A program made the position numbers and the translations under genes. A model generated the notes under the pieces. That model was not told the DNA's origin. It saw only the letters and a list, made by a program, of their open reading frames with translations, and ran no database searches. From assembly GCF_010983895.1 (NCBI RefSeq), contig NZ_CP048836.1:558001-622000 (forward strand): a stretch of DNA of 64,000 nucleotides, in the 5' to 3' direction. Every line of letters begins with the position of its first letter. The first letter of the stretch is position 1. Positions 39,576-47,062 of the stretch are shown here, piece by piece. This DNA is from Nitrogeniibacter mangrovi (GTDB taxonomy: Bacteria; Pseudomonadota; Gammaproteobacteria; Burkholderiales; Rhodocyclaceae).

Positions 39576-41525
39576 ATGTCCACACCGACGCCCAATGCGG
39601 TTCGGGGACACGTCCATCGCATTCACGACATTCTCGAGCGTGAAGGCGATGCCGGCGTCCGCGACCTCGTCAGCAGTTCCTGGCGACGATGCCTGCGCGA
39701 CTACCAGCTGGATCCGTCCGCGCCCGCGTTTCCGACCATTCTCACCGATCACGAGCTCGCCGAGCGGCGCACCTGTGCCGAGGACATCATCGAATGCGCC
39801 AAGCACGAGATGACCACGCTGTTCCAGCAGCTCGGCGATCCGGAACTGGCGGTGGTGCTCGTCGATACCGGCGGGGTCATCCTGCACATGGTGGCGGCGC
39901 CCAACTTCAGCGAGGAGGTGGGCCGCGAAGGCTTTCGCGTCGGCGCGGTGTGGAGCGAGGGCGAGATCGGCACCAACGGCATGGGCACCTGCCTCGTGCT
40001 CGGCGAGCCGGTGGTGGTGCGCCAGCACGAGCACTTCTTCGCCAAGTTCACCGGGCTGACCTGCTCCGCGGTGCCGATCTTCGATCCGGACGGGCGCATC
40101 GTTGCGGTACTCGACGTGACCAGCCGCTCCACGCTCATGCAGCAGCACTCCCTGGTGCTGCTCGGCATGACCGCGCAGATGATCGAGAACCGGCTCATCG
40201 ACCGGCGCCACCGGGAGGACTACCCGGTGCATTTCCACAGCCGGCCGGAGTTGGTCTATACGCTGCACGAAGGCATGCTGGTGGTCAGCGAGGACGGTCA
40301 CATCCGCGCCGCCAACCGCAGCGCCCTGTTCCAGCTCGGTTTCGACAGTGTCGAGTCGGTGCGCGCCAAACGCCTCGACGAGGTGTTCCAGGTCTCGCTC
40401 GACGACATCGTCAGCCGCAGCGTGCGCAGTTCCTTCCATCCGGTGCCGGCCTTCAGCGCCGGCTCGTCGAGCCGCTTCTTCATGGTGGCGCAGGAGCCCG
40501 CCTCGCGTGCGTCGCAGGAGCGCCCCCGGGCCCTGATCGATGCCGAAGCCCCCTCGCGGCCGGCCGTGCCCGCCGGGCATTTCAGCGACGCCCGGCTCAC
40601 CACCCAGCTGGCCCTGGCGGGCAAGGTGGTCGCGCGTGGCATCCCGGTGCTGCTGCATGGCGAAACCGGCGCCGGCAAGGAGATCTTCGCGCGCGCCCTG
40701 CATCAGGCCAGCCCGTGCAGCGACGGTCCGTTCGTGGCGGTCAACTGCGCCTCGCTGCCCGAAGGGCTCATCGAGAGCGAACTGTTCGGCTACCGGGCCG
40801 GCGCCTTCACCGGCGCCCAGCGCAGCGGTCGGCGCGGCAAGATCCTCCAGGCCGACCGCGGCACCCTGTTCCTGGACGAGATCGGCGACATGCCCCTGTC
40901 ACTGCAGGCGCGGCTGCTGCGGGTGCTCGACGAGCGCATGATCACGCCGCTCGGTTCCGAGGATCCGGTGCCGGTCGAATTCCAGCTCGTCAGCGCCAGC
41001 CACCGCCACCTGCCCGAGCGGGTCGCCGAAGGCTTGTTCCGCGAGGATCTGTATTTCCGCCTGTGCGGCCTCGAGGTCGCGCTGCCGCCGCTGCGCGAGC
41101 GCACCGACCGGCGCGAGTTGATCGGGCGGATGCTCGACGAGGAGGCGGGCCGGTCGATGGCCATGTCGCGGGCGGTCGAGACCCTGCTCATGGACTACCC
41201 GTGGCCGGGCAACCTGCGCCAGTTGCGGCACGTGCTGCGCACCGCGGCCGTGTTGTGTGACGGCGACTGCCTGGAGATGGCGCACCTGCCGCCGGCGGTC
41301 AGGCCGGCGCAGTCCGTTGTGCTGGGGGACGGCGAGCCGTCGCATCCTGCCGAGCCGGTGCGCGAACTGAACCCGATCGAGGCCAACGAGCGCCAGGTGT
41401 TGCTGCAACTGCTCGACGAGCACCACTGGAACGTGAGCCAGGTGGCCAAGGCGCTGGGCGTCAGTCGCAACACCCTGTACCGCAAGTTCCATCGCCTCGG
41501 CATCGAGCTCAAACCGCCTCAGTAG
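39576..41525 (+). CDS. AcoR-type sigma-54-dependent transcriptional activator
   Basis: 649 residues. The N-terminus (VRDLVSSSWRRCLRDYQLDPS) is typical of AcoR/AcxR activators; residues about 70-220 form a GAF sensor and about 225-290 a PAS-like region. The AAA+ domain has Walker A GETGAGKE (about 363), the sigma-54 contact loop GAFTGA (about 410) and Walker B GTLFLDEIGD (about 428), and residues about 600-645 form a Fis-type helix-turn-helix. It activates sigma-54 promoters by ATP hydrolysis. Position near a -24/-12 promoter before xoxF makes this the probable activator of the methanol dehydrogenase genes; AcoR relatives sense alcohols and carbonyl compounds. ATG at 39576 chosen over an unconvincing longer frame. 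Confidence 0.93.
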   Translation: MSTPTPNAVRGHVHRIHDILEREGDAGVRDLVSSSWRRCLRDYQLDPSAPAFPTILTDHELAERRTCAEDIIECAKHEMTTLFQQLGDPELAVVLVDTGGVILHMVAAPNFSEEVGREGFRVGAVWSEGEIGTNGMGTCLVLGEPVVVRQHEHFFAKFTGLTCSAVPIFDPDGRIVAVLDVTSRSTLMQQHSLVLLGMTAQMIENRLIDRRHREDYPVHFHSRPELVYTLHEGMLVVSEDGHIRAANRSALFQLGFDSVESVRAKRLDEVFQVSLDDIVSRSVRSSFHPVPAFSAGSSSRFFMVAQEPASRASQERPRALIDAEAPSRPAVPAGHFSDARLTTQLALAGKVVARGIPVLLHGETGAGKEIFARALHQASPCSDGPFVAVNCASLPEGLIESELFGYRAGAFTGAQRSGRRGKILQADRGTLFLDEIGDMPLSLQARLLRVLDERMITPLGSEDPVPVEFQLVSASHRHLPERVAEGLFREDLYFRLCGLEVALPPLRERTDRRELIGRMLDEEAGRSMAMSRAVETLLMDYPWPGNLRQLRHVLRTAAVLCDGDCLEMAHLPPAVRPAQSVVLGDGEPSHPAEPVRELNPIEANERQVLLQLLDEHHWNVSQVAKALGVSRNTLYRKFHRLGIELKPPQ

Positions 41526-41602
41526 GGTCGCTCGGCCACTGTCCGGTGGATCGGCTCGACTCTGCGGCGCCACCGGACAAAGCTGCGCAGACCCCGGCGC
41601 GC

Positions 41603-42223
41603 CTACTCCGCCAATCCCTGGTGGCGGTAGCGGTGCAGGGTGGGCGAATCGATGAGCATCTCGTGCAGCGCCGCGCGATGGCTGCGGTCGAGCACCGTGA
41701 CCGGCGTGTCGGCGGCGCGCGCCGCGTCGGCGAACGGTGCCTCGACGACACCGGCTTCGACCAGCGCCGCCCAGTCCGCGTGGGGCGGCAGCGGCGAGGA
41801 CTTGACCAGCACCAGCTTCTCCGCATTGAGGCGTTCGGCCAGCCACAGCGCCAGACCGTCGGACGAGGCGTGGCTGCCCGGTGGCATCTGCGCGGCGTGG
41901 CGCAGGTGGGCCAGAGGCATCCAGATGGCGATGCGTCCGGCGTGCAGGGTGTCGAGGATGTCCTCGTCGAGGGCGCACAGGCTGAACTCGGGGCGCAGGG
42001 CCTGGAGCATGAAGGCGAACTGCCCCATGCCGAGCACGGCGATGTTGTGCATGGTCAGGGTGTCGACCTGCCAGGTGTCACGCATGCGCCAGGCCTGACG
42101 GGCGAAGTCGCCGCCGCCGGGTACGAGCACCACACGCCCGCCGCCGAGATCGGCGATCTCGTCCAGCCAGTCGGTGAGCACCGGATCATCGGCCAGCTGT
42201 CCCCCGATCTTGATGACCCACAT
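41603..42223 (-). CDS. Amino acid kinase superfamily protein (MfnE-like)
   Basis: 206 residues. It begins MWVIKIGGQLADD (K-x-G-G phosphate loop), then VLVPGGGDFARQ, and HASSDGLALWLAERLNAEKLVLVKS near residue 120, motifs of the amino acid kinase fold (glutamate 5-kinase, UMP kinase). Its compact form resembles the kinases of methanofuran/tetrahydromethanopterin cofactor synthesis (MfnE and bacterial relatives), known from C1 clusters. It lies between the sigma-54 activator and xoxF and is divergent from xoxF, so a role in a C1 cofactor pathway is plausible but inferred. Confidence 0.7.
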   Translation of the reverse strand: MWVIKIGGQLADDPVLTDWLDEIADLGGGRVVLVPGGGDFARQAWRMRDTWQVDTLTMHNIAVLGMGQFAFMLQALRPEFSLCALDEDILDTLHAGRIAIWMPLAHLRHAAQMPPGSHASSDGLALWLAERLNAEKLVLVKSSPLPPHADWAALVEAGVVEAPFADAARAADTPVTVLDRSHRAALHEMLIDSPTLHRYRHQGLAE

Positions 42224-42435
42224 GGTTGTTGTTCTCTCCCGGGCACGTGTCCGCGTATCCCGCGCAGGCAGGGACGGAAGGTGATGACGATGGCGCGCCG
42301 GAGCGGCGCGCGGCTTCCTGCTTTCCGATACACGAACCGTGCCAAGCGTCGGGGGGCGGCTCGATCCGGCGGCCCGTGGCGACCTTGGCGTGTCGGTCGC
42401 GCGTGTGTCGGCGTGATGTTCTGGTCAGGCTGTTG

Positions 42436-42451
42436 CAGTGCCGGCGCACTG
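42436..42451. promoter_or_regulatory. Candidate upstream activator site (palindrome)
   Basis: CAGTGC-N4-GCACTG, a perfect 6-base inverted repeat, lies about 165 bases before the -24 element of the sigma-54 promoter, a typical distance for the binding site of an enhancer-binding protein. No binding data, only form and position. Confidence 0.4.
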
Positions 42452-42613
42452 TGTCACGCCGGGTGTGTCAGCACCGGGATGACCTGCGGCACGCGACCCG
42501 CCGCCACGCCCATGTCCATGCTCGCAAGTCATGCCGGCTGGCGGGTGAAATCCCTTGTTTCATCGCCCTTCCGGCCGCGGTGCGTATCGCGTCGGCGGGG
42601 GGCGTGTCCGTGG

Positions 42614-42629
42614 TGGCACGTGACTTGCA
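42614..42629 (+). promoter_or_regulatory. xoxF: Sigma-54 (-24/-12) promoter for xoxF
   Basis: TGGCACGTGACTTGCA matches the sigma-54 consensus TGGCACG-N4-TTGCA in every fixed position, with GG and GC separated by exactly 10 bases. It lies 146 bases before the xoxF start, with predicted transcription start near 42640. The nearby gene for an AcoR-type activator strongly supports function. Confidence 0.88.
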
Positions 42630-42774
42630 CTTCGGCAGTGCGGAGGTGTGAAACGTGGCCTCCCGATGTGCCGTTGCCGCTTCGCGCCGCGAGCGGATTT
42701 GACGGCATTGCCGGCGGACGGGTGGACTCTGGTGCCACGTTCGGGGGCTTGCATAAAAAACAAGGAGACATTGA

Positions 42775-44577
42775 ATGAAGGTTGGGCTGAAGCAGAAACT
42801 CGCGGTCTCGATCGCATGTCTGTTTGCCGCCGGAATGGCCTATGCCGATGCAGATCTGGACAAGGCCATGAAGGATCCGAGCAACTGGGCCGCACAGGCG
42901 GGTGACAACCAGAACCACCGGTACAGCACCCTTAAACAAATCAACGCAGGCAACGTGAACAAATTGCAGGTGGCCTGGACCTTCTCGACCGGGGTGTTGC
43001 GCGGTCACGAGGGCTCTCCGCTGGTCATCGGCGACATGATGTACATCCACTCGGCGTTTCCCAACAACGTGTTCGCGGTCGATCTGAACACGCAGGAGAT
43101 CGTCTGGAAACACACGCCCAAGCAGGACGACGCGGTGATTGCGCAGATGTGTTGCGACACCGTGAACCGGGGCCTGGCCTATGGCGACGGCAAGGTCTTC
43201 CTGCAGCGGGCCGACTCCGTGCTCGAGGCGCTCGATGCCAAGACCGGCAAGGTCGTCTGGTCGGTGGTCAACGGCGATCCCAAGCTCGGCGCGGTGAACA
43301 CCAATGCGCCGCACGTGTTCGGAGACAAGGTCATCACCGGTATCTCCGGCGGCGAGTGGGGCGTGCGTGGCTACATCACCGCCTACGACATCAAGACCGG
43401 CAAGCAGGTGTGGCGTGGCTACAGCACCGGTCCGGATGACGAGATGCTGATGGATCCGGAAAAGACCATGACGTGGACCGACGGCAAGCTGGCGCCGGTG
43501 GGCAAGGATTCGTCGCTGAAGACCTGGCAGGGCGATCAGTGGAAGATCGGTGGCGGCACCACCTGGGGGTGGTACAGCTACGACAAGGATCTGAACCTGC
43601 TCTACTACGGGAGCGGCAACCCGAGTACCTGGAACCCCGCCCAGCGGCCGGGTGACAACAAGTGGTCGATGAGTATCTGGGCGCGTGACCTCGATACCGG
43701 CAAGGTGAAGTGGATCTACCAGATGACGCCGCACGACGAGTGGGACTACGACGGTGTCAACGAGATGATCCTTGCCGACATCAACGTCAAGGGCAAGCCG
43801 ACCAAGGCGCTGGTGCACTTCGACCGCAACGGCTTCGGGTACACGCTCGATCGCACCAACGGCGCGCTGCTGGTGGCCGAGAAGTACGACCCGGCGGTCA
43901 ACTGGGCCACGCATGTGGACATGAAGACCGGTCGTCCCGAGGTCGTGGCCAAGTACTCCACGCAGCACAATGGCCCGGACGTGAACAGCAAGGGCATCTG
44001 CCCGGCGGCGCTCGGTTCCAAGGACCAGCAGCCGGCCGCCTTCGATCCGAAGACCGGCCTGTTCTACGTGCCGACCAACCACGTGTGCATGGACTACGAG
44101 CCGTACGAGGTCGACTACACCGCCGGCCAGCCGTATGTGGGTGCCACCCTGGCCATGTATCCGGCACCGAACAGCCATGGCGGCATGGGCAACTTCATCG
44201 CCTGGGATGCGGGCAAGGGCAAGATCGTCTGGTCCAAGCCGGAGAAGTTCTCGGTCTGGAGCGGTGCGCTCACCACGGCGGGCGATGTGGTCTTCTACGG
44301 AACGCTCGAAGGCTACCTCAAGGCCGTAAGCCTCAAGGACGGCAAGGAGCTGTGGAAGTTCAAGACCCCGTCCGGCATCATCGGCAATGTCTTTACCTAT
44401 GAGCACAAGGGCAAGCAGTATGTCGGCGTGTATTCGGGTATTGGCGGCTGGGCCGGTATCGGCATGGCTGCGGGCCTCGAGAAGGACAGCGAGGGCCTCG
44501 GCGCCGTGGGCGGTTATCGCGATCTGCAGAAATACACAAACCTCGGTGGCTCGCTCACCGTTTTTGCCATCCCCTAA
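42775..44577 (+). CDS. xoxF: Lanthanide-dependent PQQ methanol dehydrogenase XoxF
   Basis: 600 residues with a signal peptide (cleaved near AYA/DADL). It is a PQQ beta-propeller quinoprotein. The adjacent cysteines (CC, residues 126-127) form the disulfide ring near PQQ. Metal and catalytic residues are E194 (GGEWGVRG), N282 (GSGNPSTWN), D324, and the extra D326 in DEWDYDG; the last replaces the Ala of calcium MxaF enzymes and is diagnostic for rare-earth XoxF. It oxidises methanol (and formaldehyde) in the periplasm, passing electrons to XoxG. AAGGAGA precedes the ATG. Operon xoxF-G-J plus two unknown genes, driven by a sigma-54 promoter. Confidence 0.97.
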
Positions 44578-44710: not shown

Positions 44711-45124
44711 ATGAAACGATACCTCGTGCCCTTGCTTGCCATCGGAACCATCGTGGCCGCGCTGCCGGCGACCGCCCTGAGCGACGACAACAAAAAGCCG
44801 CTGTACACGGTGGTCGATGGCGACAAGGTGGATGCGCATACCTACGAGGGCTTCAAAACCTGGCGCGCGGCGGCCTGTGCCCGCTGTCATGGTGCCAATC
44901 AGGAGGGCATGGTCGGGCCGTCGCTGATCGACAGCCTCAAGGTGCTTACCTACGAAGAGTTCAAGACCACGGTGCTCGAGGGACGCCTCGAGAAGGGCAT
45001 GCCCAACTGGAGCACCAACAAGAAGGTGGTCGAGAACCTCGATGCCCTGTATGCCTATCTCAAGGGGCGGTCGGACGGCAAGATCACCAAGGCCCGTGTC
45101 CACCGGATGGACAAGGACAAGTAA
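44711..45124 (+). CDS. xoxG: Cytochrome c for methanol dehydrogenase
   Basis: 137 residues, including a signal peptide (cleaved near ATA/LSDD). The haem-binding CxxCH motif is CARCH at residues 56-60, and M97 in EKGMPNW is the likely axial ligand. It is the cognate electron acceptor of XoxF (cytochrome cL-like, short XoxG type). It lies 133 bases after xoxF, with GGAGAGAGACACC before the ATG. The frame stays open upstream but that extension is not coding-like. Confidence 0.92.
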   Translation: MKRYLVPLLAIGTIVAALPATALSDDNKKPLYTVVDGDKVDAHTYEGFKTWRAAACARCHGANQEGMVGPSLIDSLKVLTYEEFKTTVLEGRLEKGMPNWSTNKKVVENLDALYAYLKGRSDGKITKARVHRMDKDK

Positions 45125-45148: not shown

Positions 45149-46021
45149 ATGAAGATCAGTCGCATTGCTGGCGCTGCACGACGGTGTCTCGCCGTCGCGA
45201 TCGCGCTGAGCCTGCCGGTCGTGGCTGCCGCCGCGGGCGACATGGATCGCAAGGCCTTCCGGGTCTGCAAGGATGGCAACAACCTGCCGTTCTCCAACAC
45301 CGCGGGAGAGGGCTTCGAGGATCGCATCGCGGCGCTGTTCGCCGAGGATCTCGGCGTGCCGGTGAAGGATTTCACCTTCCCGCAGCGGCTCGGCTTCATC
45401 CGCAACACCTTGCGCAACAAGGTGCCGGGTGAAGACTACCCCTGCGATGTGGTCATGGGCGTGCCTGCCGGCTGGGGGCAGGTGGCTTCGACCAAACCCT
45501 ATTACCGGTCCACCTGGGCATTGGTGTTTCCGCCCCGGGGGGCGCTGGCTGAGGTCACCACCGAAGATCAGTTCCTGCACAACGATGCGGTGCGCAAGAA
45601 TCAGGTGCGCATCGGCGTCTTCGACCGCTCGCCCGGGTCCGCCTGGTTGTCGCACCACCATCTGGTGGACGCCGGCGTGCCCTACCGCAGCATGCATCCC
45701 AACCCCGACGTGACGCCGGCCGACCTGGTGGCGACGGACCTGAAGGACGGCAAGATCGCCGCGGCCGTCGTGTGGGGGCCGATCGCCGGTCATCTGGCTC
45801 GCGGTGTGGGTGAGGGCAAATGGCGCGTGGTTCCGCTCAACTCCGAACCCGGCGTACGTTTCGATTACGCCATGGCCATGGGCGTGCGCCGCGGCGAGGA
45901 TGCCTGGCGCGCGCAGATCGAGGCGCTGATCGACCGGCATCGCGACCAGATCGCGGCGATCCTGGCCGAATACCAGGTGCCCACGCTGCCGCTCGAGGAG
46001 GCCGGCAATGCGGCGCGCTGA
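45149..46021 (+). CDS. xoxJ: Periplasmic binding-like protein XoxJ
   Basis: 290 residues with a signal peptide (cleaved near AAA/GDMD). The sequence resembles extracellular solute-binding proteins of the MxaJ/XoxJ family (FRVCKDGNNLPFSNT, VMGVPAGWGQVASTKPYYRS, AAVVWGPIAGHLA). XoxJ is required for XoxF activity in other bacteria and is thought to help activation of the enzyme or metal loading. It follows xoxG by 24 bases and overlaps the next gene by 14 bases. Confidence 0.92.
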   Translation: MKISRIAGAARRCLAVAIALSLPVVAAAAGDMDRKAFRVCKDGNNLPFSNTAGEGFEDRIAALFAEDLGVPVKDFTFPQRLGFIRNTLRNKVPGEDYPCDVVMGVPAGWGQVASTKPYYRSTWALVFPPRGALAEVTTEDQFLHNDAVRKNQVRIGVFDRSPGSAWLSHHHLVDAGVPYRSMHPNPDVTPADLVATDLKDGKIAAAVVWGPIAGHLARGVGEGKWRVVPLNSEPGVRFDYAMAMGVRRGEDAWRAQIEALIDRHRDQIAAILAEYQVPTLPLEEAGNAAR

Positions 46022-46688
46022 GCCGATCGGCCGATGCCTGCGGCGCCCGCTGCTGATGGTGTTCCTGGCGCTGTTCAGTCTCGTGGTGCGGGCCGGCGCC
46101 GGTCCGTCGCAGGCGGAGCGGGCGATCTTCATGTCGCCGCATCTGGCCGACATGCATGCGCCGGCGACCCTGCACTACGCCTATGTGCTGCACGAGGGCA
46201 GTGCGCCACCGGTGCGCGACAGCGCCGACCTGTCCGTCAAGGGCGACGGCAAGGCCGGCTTCCGGGTCTCGGCTCGCTTCCTCAGCGGTGAGCGGCAGCT
46301 GCAGCTGCCGACGATCGATGCGGCCAAGGCCAACCCGGTCGTGCTCTACTTCCTCGAATACGACGTGCGTCGCATGCATGCGGAACTGGGTGGGTCGACC
46401 AACTACTTCCGCCGCCACATCCGCATGGCGCTGGCCGACGCCGCGAAGGTGGAGCCGGTGCGCTTCTCGTTTGGCGGCGTTGCTCATGACGGTACCCGGG
46501 TGCGTATCGAACCCTTCCGTGATCTGCCCGAGGCGGGCCGCATGAAGGACCAGGCGCACAAGTTCTACGAGTTCATTCTGAGCCCCGCCGTGCCCGGTGG
46601 GGTGTTCGACCTGCGGAGCACCGTGCCGGCAGCGGATGGCACCGTCCTCGAGGAAACTTCGCTGACGCTTGACGTGGGAGGCTCATGA
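46008..46688 (+). CDS. Uncharacterised exported protein of the xox operon
   Basis: 226 residues. The N-terminus has a hydrophobic segment (LLMVFLALFSLVVRAGAG) consistent with a signal peptide; the mature part is rich in beta-type sequence (HYAYVLHEGSAPPVRDSADLS, LQLPTIDAAKANPVVLYFLEYDV split) and a conserved-looking KFYEFILSPAVPGGVF. I recognise no domain. Its start overlaps xoxJ by 14 bases and its stop overlaps the next gene by 4 bases, so all are made from one message. A role in XoxF maturation or metal handling is inferred from context. Confidence 0.75.
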   Translation: MRRAEPIGRCLRRPLLMVFLALFSLVVRAGAGPSQAERAIFMSPHLADMHAPATLHYAYVLHEGSAPPVRDSADLSVKGDGKAGFRVSARFLSGERQLQLPTIDAAKANPVVLYFLEYDVRRMHAELGGSTNYFRRHIRMALADAAKVEPVRFSFGGVAHDGTRVRIEPFRDLPEAGRMKDQAHKFYEFILSPAVPGGVFDLRSTVPAADGTVLEETSLTLDVGGS

Positions 46689-47062
46689 AACCGCACCCGT
46701 TCATCCTCAGATGCGCCGTGGGCGTGATGGCCGGGGCGCTGGCCGCCATGGCCGGCGCCGCCGGCACAGGGCATGACTATCCGACCGTGAGCCGCGTGGA
46801 GTACGTCGTCGACTGCATGCGCGATGCGCCCAAGGCCAGCCGTGAATATCTCTACAAGTGCAGCTGCGTGATCGACCAGATCGCCCAGCGGCTCAGTTAC
46901 GACGAGTTCGTCAATGAATCGACGGTCGCCAATGCCCTCACCATCGGTGGCGAGCGCGGCGAGGTGATGCGCGACCTGCGGGGCGGACGTCAGGTGGCCC
47001 GGCAGTTCCACGGCGTGGAGAACGAGGCGCGCAAGGCCTGTTTCATGCCGCCGCGCGGTTGA
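46685..47062 (+). CDS. Small cysteine-containing exported protein of the xox operon
   Basis: 125 residues. A signal peptide (MKPHPFILRCAVGVMAGALA...AGAA) precedes a mature region with four cysteines (VDCMRD, KCSCVID, KACF), which could form disulfides or bind metal. I do not recognise a family. It overlaps the previous gene by 4 bases and is the last gene of the xox unit. It is a candidate accessory factor for the methanol dehydrogenase system; no motif tells its function. Confidence 0.72.
   Translation: MKPHPFILRCAVGVMAGALAAMAGAAGTGHDYPTVSRVEYVVDCMRDAPKASREYLYKCSCVIDQIAQRLSYDEFVNESTVANALTIGGERGEVMRDLRGGRQVARQFHGVENEARKACFMPPRG

Follow-up and report, generated by a model that had tools for sequence, protein, structure and literature searches.

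Candidate sigma-54 control of the methanol dehydrogenase gene xoxF by a linked one-component activator in Nitrogeniibacter mangrovi

Overview

In Nitrogeniibacter mangrovi, xoxF, probably along with the genes behind it, is, with good confidence, driven by sigma-54 RNA polymerase together with a dedicated one-component activator encoded nearby, as judged from comparisons of DNA and protein sequences. The window, i.e., the whole stretch of 64,000 nucleotides that was analysed (contig NZ_CP048836.1, positions 558,001 to 622,000), carries the elements of such a system between the activator gene and xoxF (Table 1). These elements are rare and conserved, and the enhancer, the activator ortholog and xoxF co-occur across genomes. 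The proposal of a preliminary description that xoxF is apparently under sigma-54 control thereby gains support from three sides, namely promoter conservation, the co-occurrence of enhancer and activator ortholog, and an activator clade that is mostly xoxF-linked.

In the proposed mechanism, the activator would sense a cytoplasmic signal through its N-terminal GAF region and bind the repeat upstream of the promoter through its Fis-type HTH. DNA looping would then bring the bound repeat and the promoter together, and the AAA+ GAFTGA motor would open the sigma-54 polymerase complex, with transcription of xoxF, and probably of the four same-strand genes behind it, starting from the -24/-12 site.

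Table 1. Features of the xoxF region (positions in the window)
Feature	Position	Strand	Basis
GAF-AAA+(GAFTGA)-Fis HTH enhancer-binding protein, proposed xoxF activator	39576..41525	+	Pfam, ortholog distribution, tree
MfnE-like amino-acid-kinase family protein	41603..42223	-	PF00696; NF040622 weak, far below cut-off
Probable enhancer for the activator, GTGTCACGCCGGGTGTGTCA at 42451-42470	42445..42471	+	Core GTGTCAC-N5-GTGTGTCA; conservation, co-occurrence
Predicted -24/-12 sigma-54 promoter TGGCACGTGACTTGCA = TGGCACG-TGAC-TTGCA	42614..42629	+	Exact 16-mer consensus; expected start near 42640
xoxF, predicted lanthanide-type PQQ methanol dehydrogenase	42775..44577	+	6dam/6oc5 XoxF best matches, DYD kept; TIGR03075
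Cytochrome c (xoxG-like)	44711..45124	+	PF13442; TIGR03874 below cut-off
xoxJ-like periplasmic substrate-binding protein	45149..46021	+	TIGR03871 above cut-off
xox-cluster protein, no named family	46008..46688	+	Adjoins xoxF in many relatives
xox-cluster small protein, no named family	46685..47062	+	Adjoins xoxF in many relatives

The xoxF locus

Comparison with the PDB places the xoxF product closest to solved XoxF chains (967 bits for 6dam and 946 bits for 6oc5). Its residues 324-326, DYD, align with those of the solved XoxF and would include an extra Asp two positions after the catalytic Asp. A conserved extra Asp is given as a XoxF trait in the accessible part of PMC11845868 and would map onto this DYD, which suggests a XoxF of the lanthanide methanol dehydrogenase type with a predicted dependence on lanthanides. 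The ATG of the gene at 42775 is preceded by AAGGAG. As the same-strand genes behind xoxF follow at intervals of 133 and 24 bases and the later ones overlap, a five-gene operon beginning with xoxF is likely.

Between the activator gene and xoxF sits the gene of an MfnE-like kinase, divergent from xoxF, on which the preliminary description was silent. In two relatives (G200 and G241), the activator lies inside a gene island whose products we take to be Mch and Fae in both genomes, MtdB in G200 and MfnB in G241. This is possibly a tetrahydromethanopterin gene island, and the MfnE-like gene beside xoxF may be a leftover of such an island, since lost; Fae has no match in the N. mangrovi genome. Facing the MfnE-like gene, TGGCACGGTTCGTGTA (42329-42344, minus strand), with its counterpart TGGCACGCTTTGTGTT in the same-genus relative G008, is either a degenerate divergent -24/-12 element or a second CAC-N5-GTG dyad. 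An Rfam search of positions 41500-43000 was without match up to E 1 and thus gave no known leader RNA, and a terminator scan likewise found nothing.

The -24/-12 element and its conservation

The fit of TGGCACGTGACTTGCA to the -24/-12 consensus, claimed in the preliminary description along with its position just before xoxF, holds on both counts: 10 bases separate its GG (42615-42616) from its GC (42627-42628), and the site is set off from the xoxF ATG by 145 bases. The site matches TGGCACGNNNNTTGCW (TGGCACG-N4-TTGCW) exactly and is the only exact match within the window. A loose pattern with two mismatches is no more frequent there than chance predicts (16 matches against 19 expected). Significance is thus lacking within the window alone, and genome-wide and comparative tests were therefore used.

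Over the genome, TGGCACGNNNNTTGCW gives seven exact sites per 4.24 Mb against none for its reversed-pattern control, and the looser TGGCAYGNNNNNTGCW gives 26 matches against 7. Of the other six exact sites, three precede what we take to be glnK (glnK-amtB), a fliE-like gene located behind a regulator of the NtrC type, and nifB; under these gene names, at least three of the six are classical sigma-54 targets. A fourth presumably belongs to a MoxJ-like binding protein encoded divergently from another GAF activator, and the remaining two lie, respectively, at a small unidentified ORF and without a convincing gene. The genome has one rpoN (single PF04552 match, 226.7 bits).

Conservation was followed upstream of xoxF, with a maximum site score of 15.9 and distances counted from where the protein match begins, which is not always at the start codon. 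TGGCACGTGACTTGCACTT is identical in G008. In the family survey, 395 genomes were searched and 37 have a close XoxF; of 31 upstream regions examined, 21 score at least 14.4, the ten misses being eight in genus g6, G372, and G061, which has a weaker site (13.1). At XoxF identities of at least 80%, 21 of 22 family loci have the site, with the window included and two partial matches that have no gene start (G068 and G275) outside the count; the exception, G372 (XoxF at 81%), lacks it, which counts against the model. The element is kept at all ten loci examined in genus g73. It is found in none of eight genomes of genus g6, where xoxF genes are often tandem: six of them (G149, G211, G269, G234, G182, and G318) have no site upstream of the first tandem gene, and the other two are G014 and G295. 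The best score over seven first-gene upstream regions of tandem xoxF, one of which (G163) is from genus g54, is 12.2.

Among the best 80 xoxF loci of the matches listed, each scanned over about 500 bases upstream, 10 score at least 14.8 and 44 at least 13.0; the 36 below 13.0 count against the model. Strong sites are found among the Rhodocyclaceae, in genomes labelled Nevskia or gammaproteobacterial, and in Pollutimonas, Candidimonas, and Massilia. Noviherbaspirillum, Variovorax, Caballeronia, and Paraburkholderia have weaker sites at a conserved position, those of the last two genera being mostly near chance when taken singly.

The figures were set against controls in 98 non-redundant upstream regions, from which the window's own locus (L008) is excluded and for which 13 of 111 loci were removed as near-duplicates. 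At a score of at least 14.8, there are 27 forward sites versus 0.1 expected by shuffling, with one on the opposite strand, none in reversed sequence, and none inside the gene. At a score of at least 13.0, there are 57 versus 6.3, and the same controls give 7, 7, and 0; the related genomes in all these counts are not independent, and two loci (L016 and L143) are apparently on one and the same contig of 63,804 bases. Many Rhodocyclaceae share the element before xoxF, as do some betaproteobacterial relatives outside the family and some labelled Nevskia, and this recurrence excludes chance as its source. Comparison of the promoter with related genomes had been put forward in the preliminary description as a check, and the comparative case it yields is stronger than was stated there.

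The activator and its relatives

The activator possesses GAF (PF01590), sigma-54 AAA+ (PF00158), and Fis-type HTH (PF02954) domains as well as a GAFTGA loop, and 1.25 kb separate the end of its ORF from the xoxF ATG, in agreement with the AcoR-type activator announced about 1.3 kb upstream. "AcoR-type" is correct as architecture, and acetoin sensing is not implied. The acetoin activator AcoR has the same GAF, AAA+, and Fis HTH arrangement and targets the acetoin operon.

An ortholog (65-80% identity, the window's own counted) is encoded in 12 of the 395 family genomes. Eleven of these have xoxF, and the one without it (G243) is a draft of 80% completeness. In the window's genus, two of ten genomes have both ortholog and xoxF and eight have neither, two of the eight being only 86% complete. 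In a set of nine other genomes with the ortholog, eight carry activator and xoxF on one contig, 1.2-11.6 kb apart, and the ninth, G223, has them on different contigs; in G275, which is outside this set, they are about 28 kb apart. A close ortholog is absent from genus g6, where the best match reaches 46-47%, and the ortholog is absent from genus g73 (best 41-44%). Since g73 keeps the promoter without the ortholog, another activator must serve its xoxF. Four g73 loci (L151, L154, L157, and L160) share a AAAAAGTAGCAC(T/C)TGCCCC motif upstream of the xoxF sigma-54 site, and L156 and L159, of the same genus, have a diverged form of it.

In a quick tree of 49 activators, which carries a long-branch warning, the protein falls into a clade of 21 rows (SH-aLRT 92), 16 of them xoxF-linked, i.e., on the same contig at up to 24 kb. 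The linked rows come from Rhodocyclaceae, Massilia, Noviherbaspirillum, Pollutimonas, and Candidimonas, and the five others are four unlinked g6 rows and G223. The xoxF-linked label is clustered on the tree (3 changes vs a shuffled mean of 5.6, with 0 of 500 as low), a result that near-copies favour. Four xoxF-adjacent activators (L046, L052, L061, and L136) group apart in a clade of their own, and the xoxF genes beside them lack a -24/-12 element, which counts against the model; the promoter scan for L136 was made under locus L099.

Two residues of the sensor region follow this grouping. Among the rows of the clade (g6 left aside) together with three rows of the Nevskia type, the 19 that cover the position all have Glu78; it is also found in 4 of 4 rows from g6 and in none of 26 others, a set that includes one duplicate. 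Cys139 is found in 18 of the 19 clade and Nevskia-type rows, in none of the four g6 rows (Val instead), and in 2 of the 26 others (L187 and L188); as for exceptions, L087 has Ala and L094 is too short to tell. Together, Cys139 and Glu78 are a possible lead to an electrophile sensor. Methanol, formaldehyde, or another alcohol or aldehyde is a guess at the signal, and a lanthanide is possible. It is an even call whether the activator founds a dedicated one-component family of xoxF regulators in Betaproteobacteria, with a cytoplasmic sensor and a single enhancer per genome, that replaces the two-component lanthanide switches; Cys139, in the GTNGMGTC motif that marks xoxF-linked members, and Glu78 would then suggest a reactive aldehyde (formaldehyde) or a similarly small signal.

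Elsewhere in the genome, five of the seven other PQQ alcohol dehydrogenase genes have an activator gene no more than 7 kb away (C1:944770-953621, 1615658-1631634, and 3782549-3789282; L106-L108, L112, and L138-L140). For two of the five, the nearest activator match is L112, which aligns only from residue 285, and TGGCACAACCTTTGCA stands 136 bases before one of these dehydrogenase genes. Because of the nearby activators and TGGCACAACCTTTGCA, sigma-54 control may perhaps be common for the quinoproteins of this genome.

A candidate enhancer

The repeat GTGTCACGCCGGGTGTGTCA, whose core stands 163 bases before the -24 element, is probably the enhancer for the neighbouring activator, as its distribution among genomes suggests. 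It was identified from repeated occurrence in relatives; a simple inverted-repeat listing was rejected as a source of enhancers (many GC-rich chance palindromes). N. mangrovi (G000) and G008 share 311 of 523 bases (60%) in the intergenic region, where two conserved islands at 42447-42471 (21/25) and 42612-42634 (21/23) enclose a spacer of 68/140. No convincing IHF site was found in the spacer, the best having two mismatches to a loose consensus.

GTGTCAC-N5-GTGTGTCA is unique in the genome, and the three matches with one mismatch share one sequence and are presumably 16S rRNA genes. In 25 whole genomes, the pattern GTGTCACGN{4,5}GTGTGTMA has seven matches, all upstream of xoxF and starting 319-380 bases before the xoxF match, against none for the controls. 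Seven of the 10 genomes that encode the activator ortholog have it, versus none of the 15 that do not (six of the window's genus, six of g73, and three of g6). The three ortholog genomes without the exact pattern, G241, G377, and G260, carry forms with 3, 1, and 3 mismatches, respectively. Counted from the start of the repeat, the distance down to the -24 element is 140-199 bases in the 11 promoters listed.

A different repeat is seen in three Caballeronia/Paraburkholderia loci (L068, L080, and L091), where the perfect palindrome GACACAGTATGTGTC lies 90-111 bases before the -24 element of a weak -24/-12 site (CGGCATGGAATATGCA or CGGCACGGAATGTGCA) upstream of xoxF. This palindrome is perhaps the enhancer of another activator.

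Alternative readings

That the -24/-12 match is fortuitous or a fossil, with xoxF read from an unrecognised sigma-70 promoter, is very improbable. A longer sigma-54 consensus, YTGGCACGrNNNTTGCW, is given in the accessible text of PMC5874634, and both of its outer positions are missed by the site (G for Y and T for R), a point in favour of this reading. As only 10 of 21 family promoters carry the Y and 9 the R, these positions do not discriminate here, and GG, GC, and their spacing are the defining core of a -24/-12 promoter. Sigma-70 promoters of GC-rich genomes are often missed by consensus scans, which also favours a sigma-70 start; against it stand the conservation statistics of the promoter and the absence of any sigma-70-type match in 42200-42800. 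A genuine sigma-54 promoter could also answer mainly to another activator of the same genome, the neighbour controlling something else. Six further activators in the genome align along most of the query, and g73 genomes manage with the promoter and without the ortholog; however, the enhancer pattern tracks the neighbour's ortholog in the 25 genomes and occurs only before xoxF, and the neighbour's clade is mostly xoxF-linked, so that this arrangement is improbable.

A two-layered control has a better, though still minor, chance: a lanthanide switch built as a two-component system, in the manner of MxbDM, MxaYB, or PedS2R2, would also act on xoxF, and sigma-54 would add a substrate signal. Two-component control is described for the studied organisms in the accessible parts of PMC11845868 and PMC9291206, whereas no two-component protein is among the 11 window proteins scanned, a weak point as it concerns the window only. 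Control of xoxF through sigma-54 and the linked activator remains the preferred reading.

Comparison with known systems

In the available portions of PMC11845868 and PMC9291206, methanol dehydrogenase genes are under two-component control. MxbDM/MxcQE, MxaYB, and PedS2R2 resemble the system proposed here in regulating lanthanide-type quinoprotein dehydrogenases (MDH/PQQ-ADH genes), but they consist of sensor kinases and response regulators (PMC11845868 and PMC9291206, available portions). The different control logic pointed out in the preliminary description agrees with the former source. Closer in design is BmoR/Pbmo of Thauera butanivorans, in which a sigma-54 activator serves an oxidation pathway from an enhancer well upstream of the -24/-12 element (193 bp in Pbmo) and responds to alcohols (PMC8899819, in part), an alcohol signal being a guess here. 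BmoR differs in its target, an alkane monooxygenase instead of xoxF, and in its sensitivity to C4-C6 alcohols (PMC6366067, in part). MmoR and the sMMO promoters of methanotrophs likewise join a linked activator to a sigma-54-controlled C1-oxidation operon (PMC5874634 and PMC6778391, in part), but for methane monooxygenase and not methanol dehydrogenase.

A GAF-modulated sigma-54 regulator is named in the legend of Fig. 1 of PMC11845868, on MxaFI/XoxF gene clusters of four species. Gene linkage alone is therefore not new; the part of that paper available gives the gene name only, without promoter, enhancer, or function. No report of sigma-54 control of xoxF was found in the literature searched, most subscription papers lying outside its reach, and it is absent from the accessible parts of PMC12403871, PMC5623727, PMC11237559, PMC5874634, PMC6754898, PMC6778391, PMC8427195, PMC3404531, PMC12642758, PMC11845868, PMC13300288, and PMC12628762. 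The main text of a 2025 survey of sigma-54 regulons (PMC12316311) does not contain the words methanol, quinoprotein, PQQ, or AcoR, and the accessible part of a Methylosinus transcript map (PMC12403871) places RpoN motifs upstream of nitrogen genes. The sigma-54 scheme appears, on the sequence comparisons, common to related bacteria and not to have been described for XoxF in the literature searched.

Significance

Many bacteria not known as methylotrophs have xoxF. For part of the Rhodocyclaceae, a conserved promoter combined with a linked activator and a single enhancer per genome offers a testable answer to how its expression is decided. In Massilia, Noviherbaspirillum, Pollutimonas, and Candidimonas, the same combination serves as a lead, the sites of Variovorax, Caballeronia, and Paraburkholderia being weaker and suggestive only. 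The system also offers a possible biosensor part. In these bacteria, XoxF may run as an inducible response to alcohols or aldehydes rather than under a metal switch alone.
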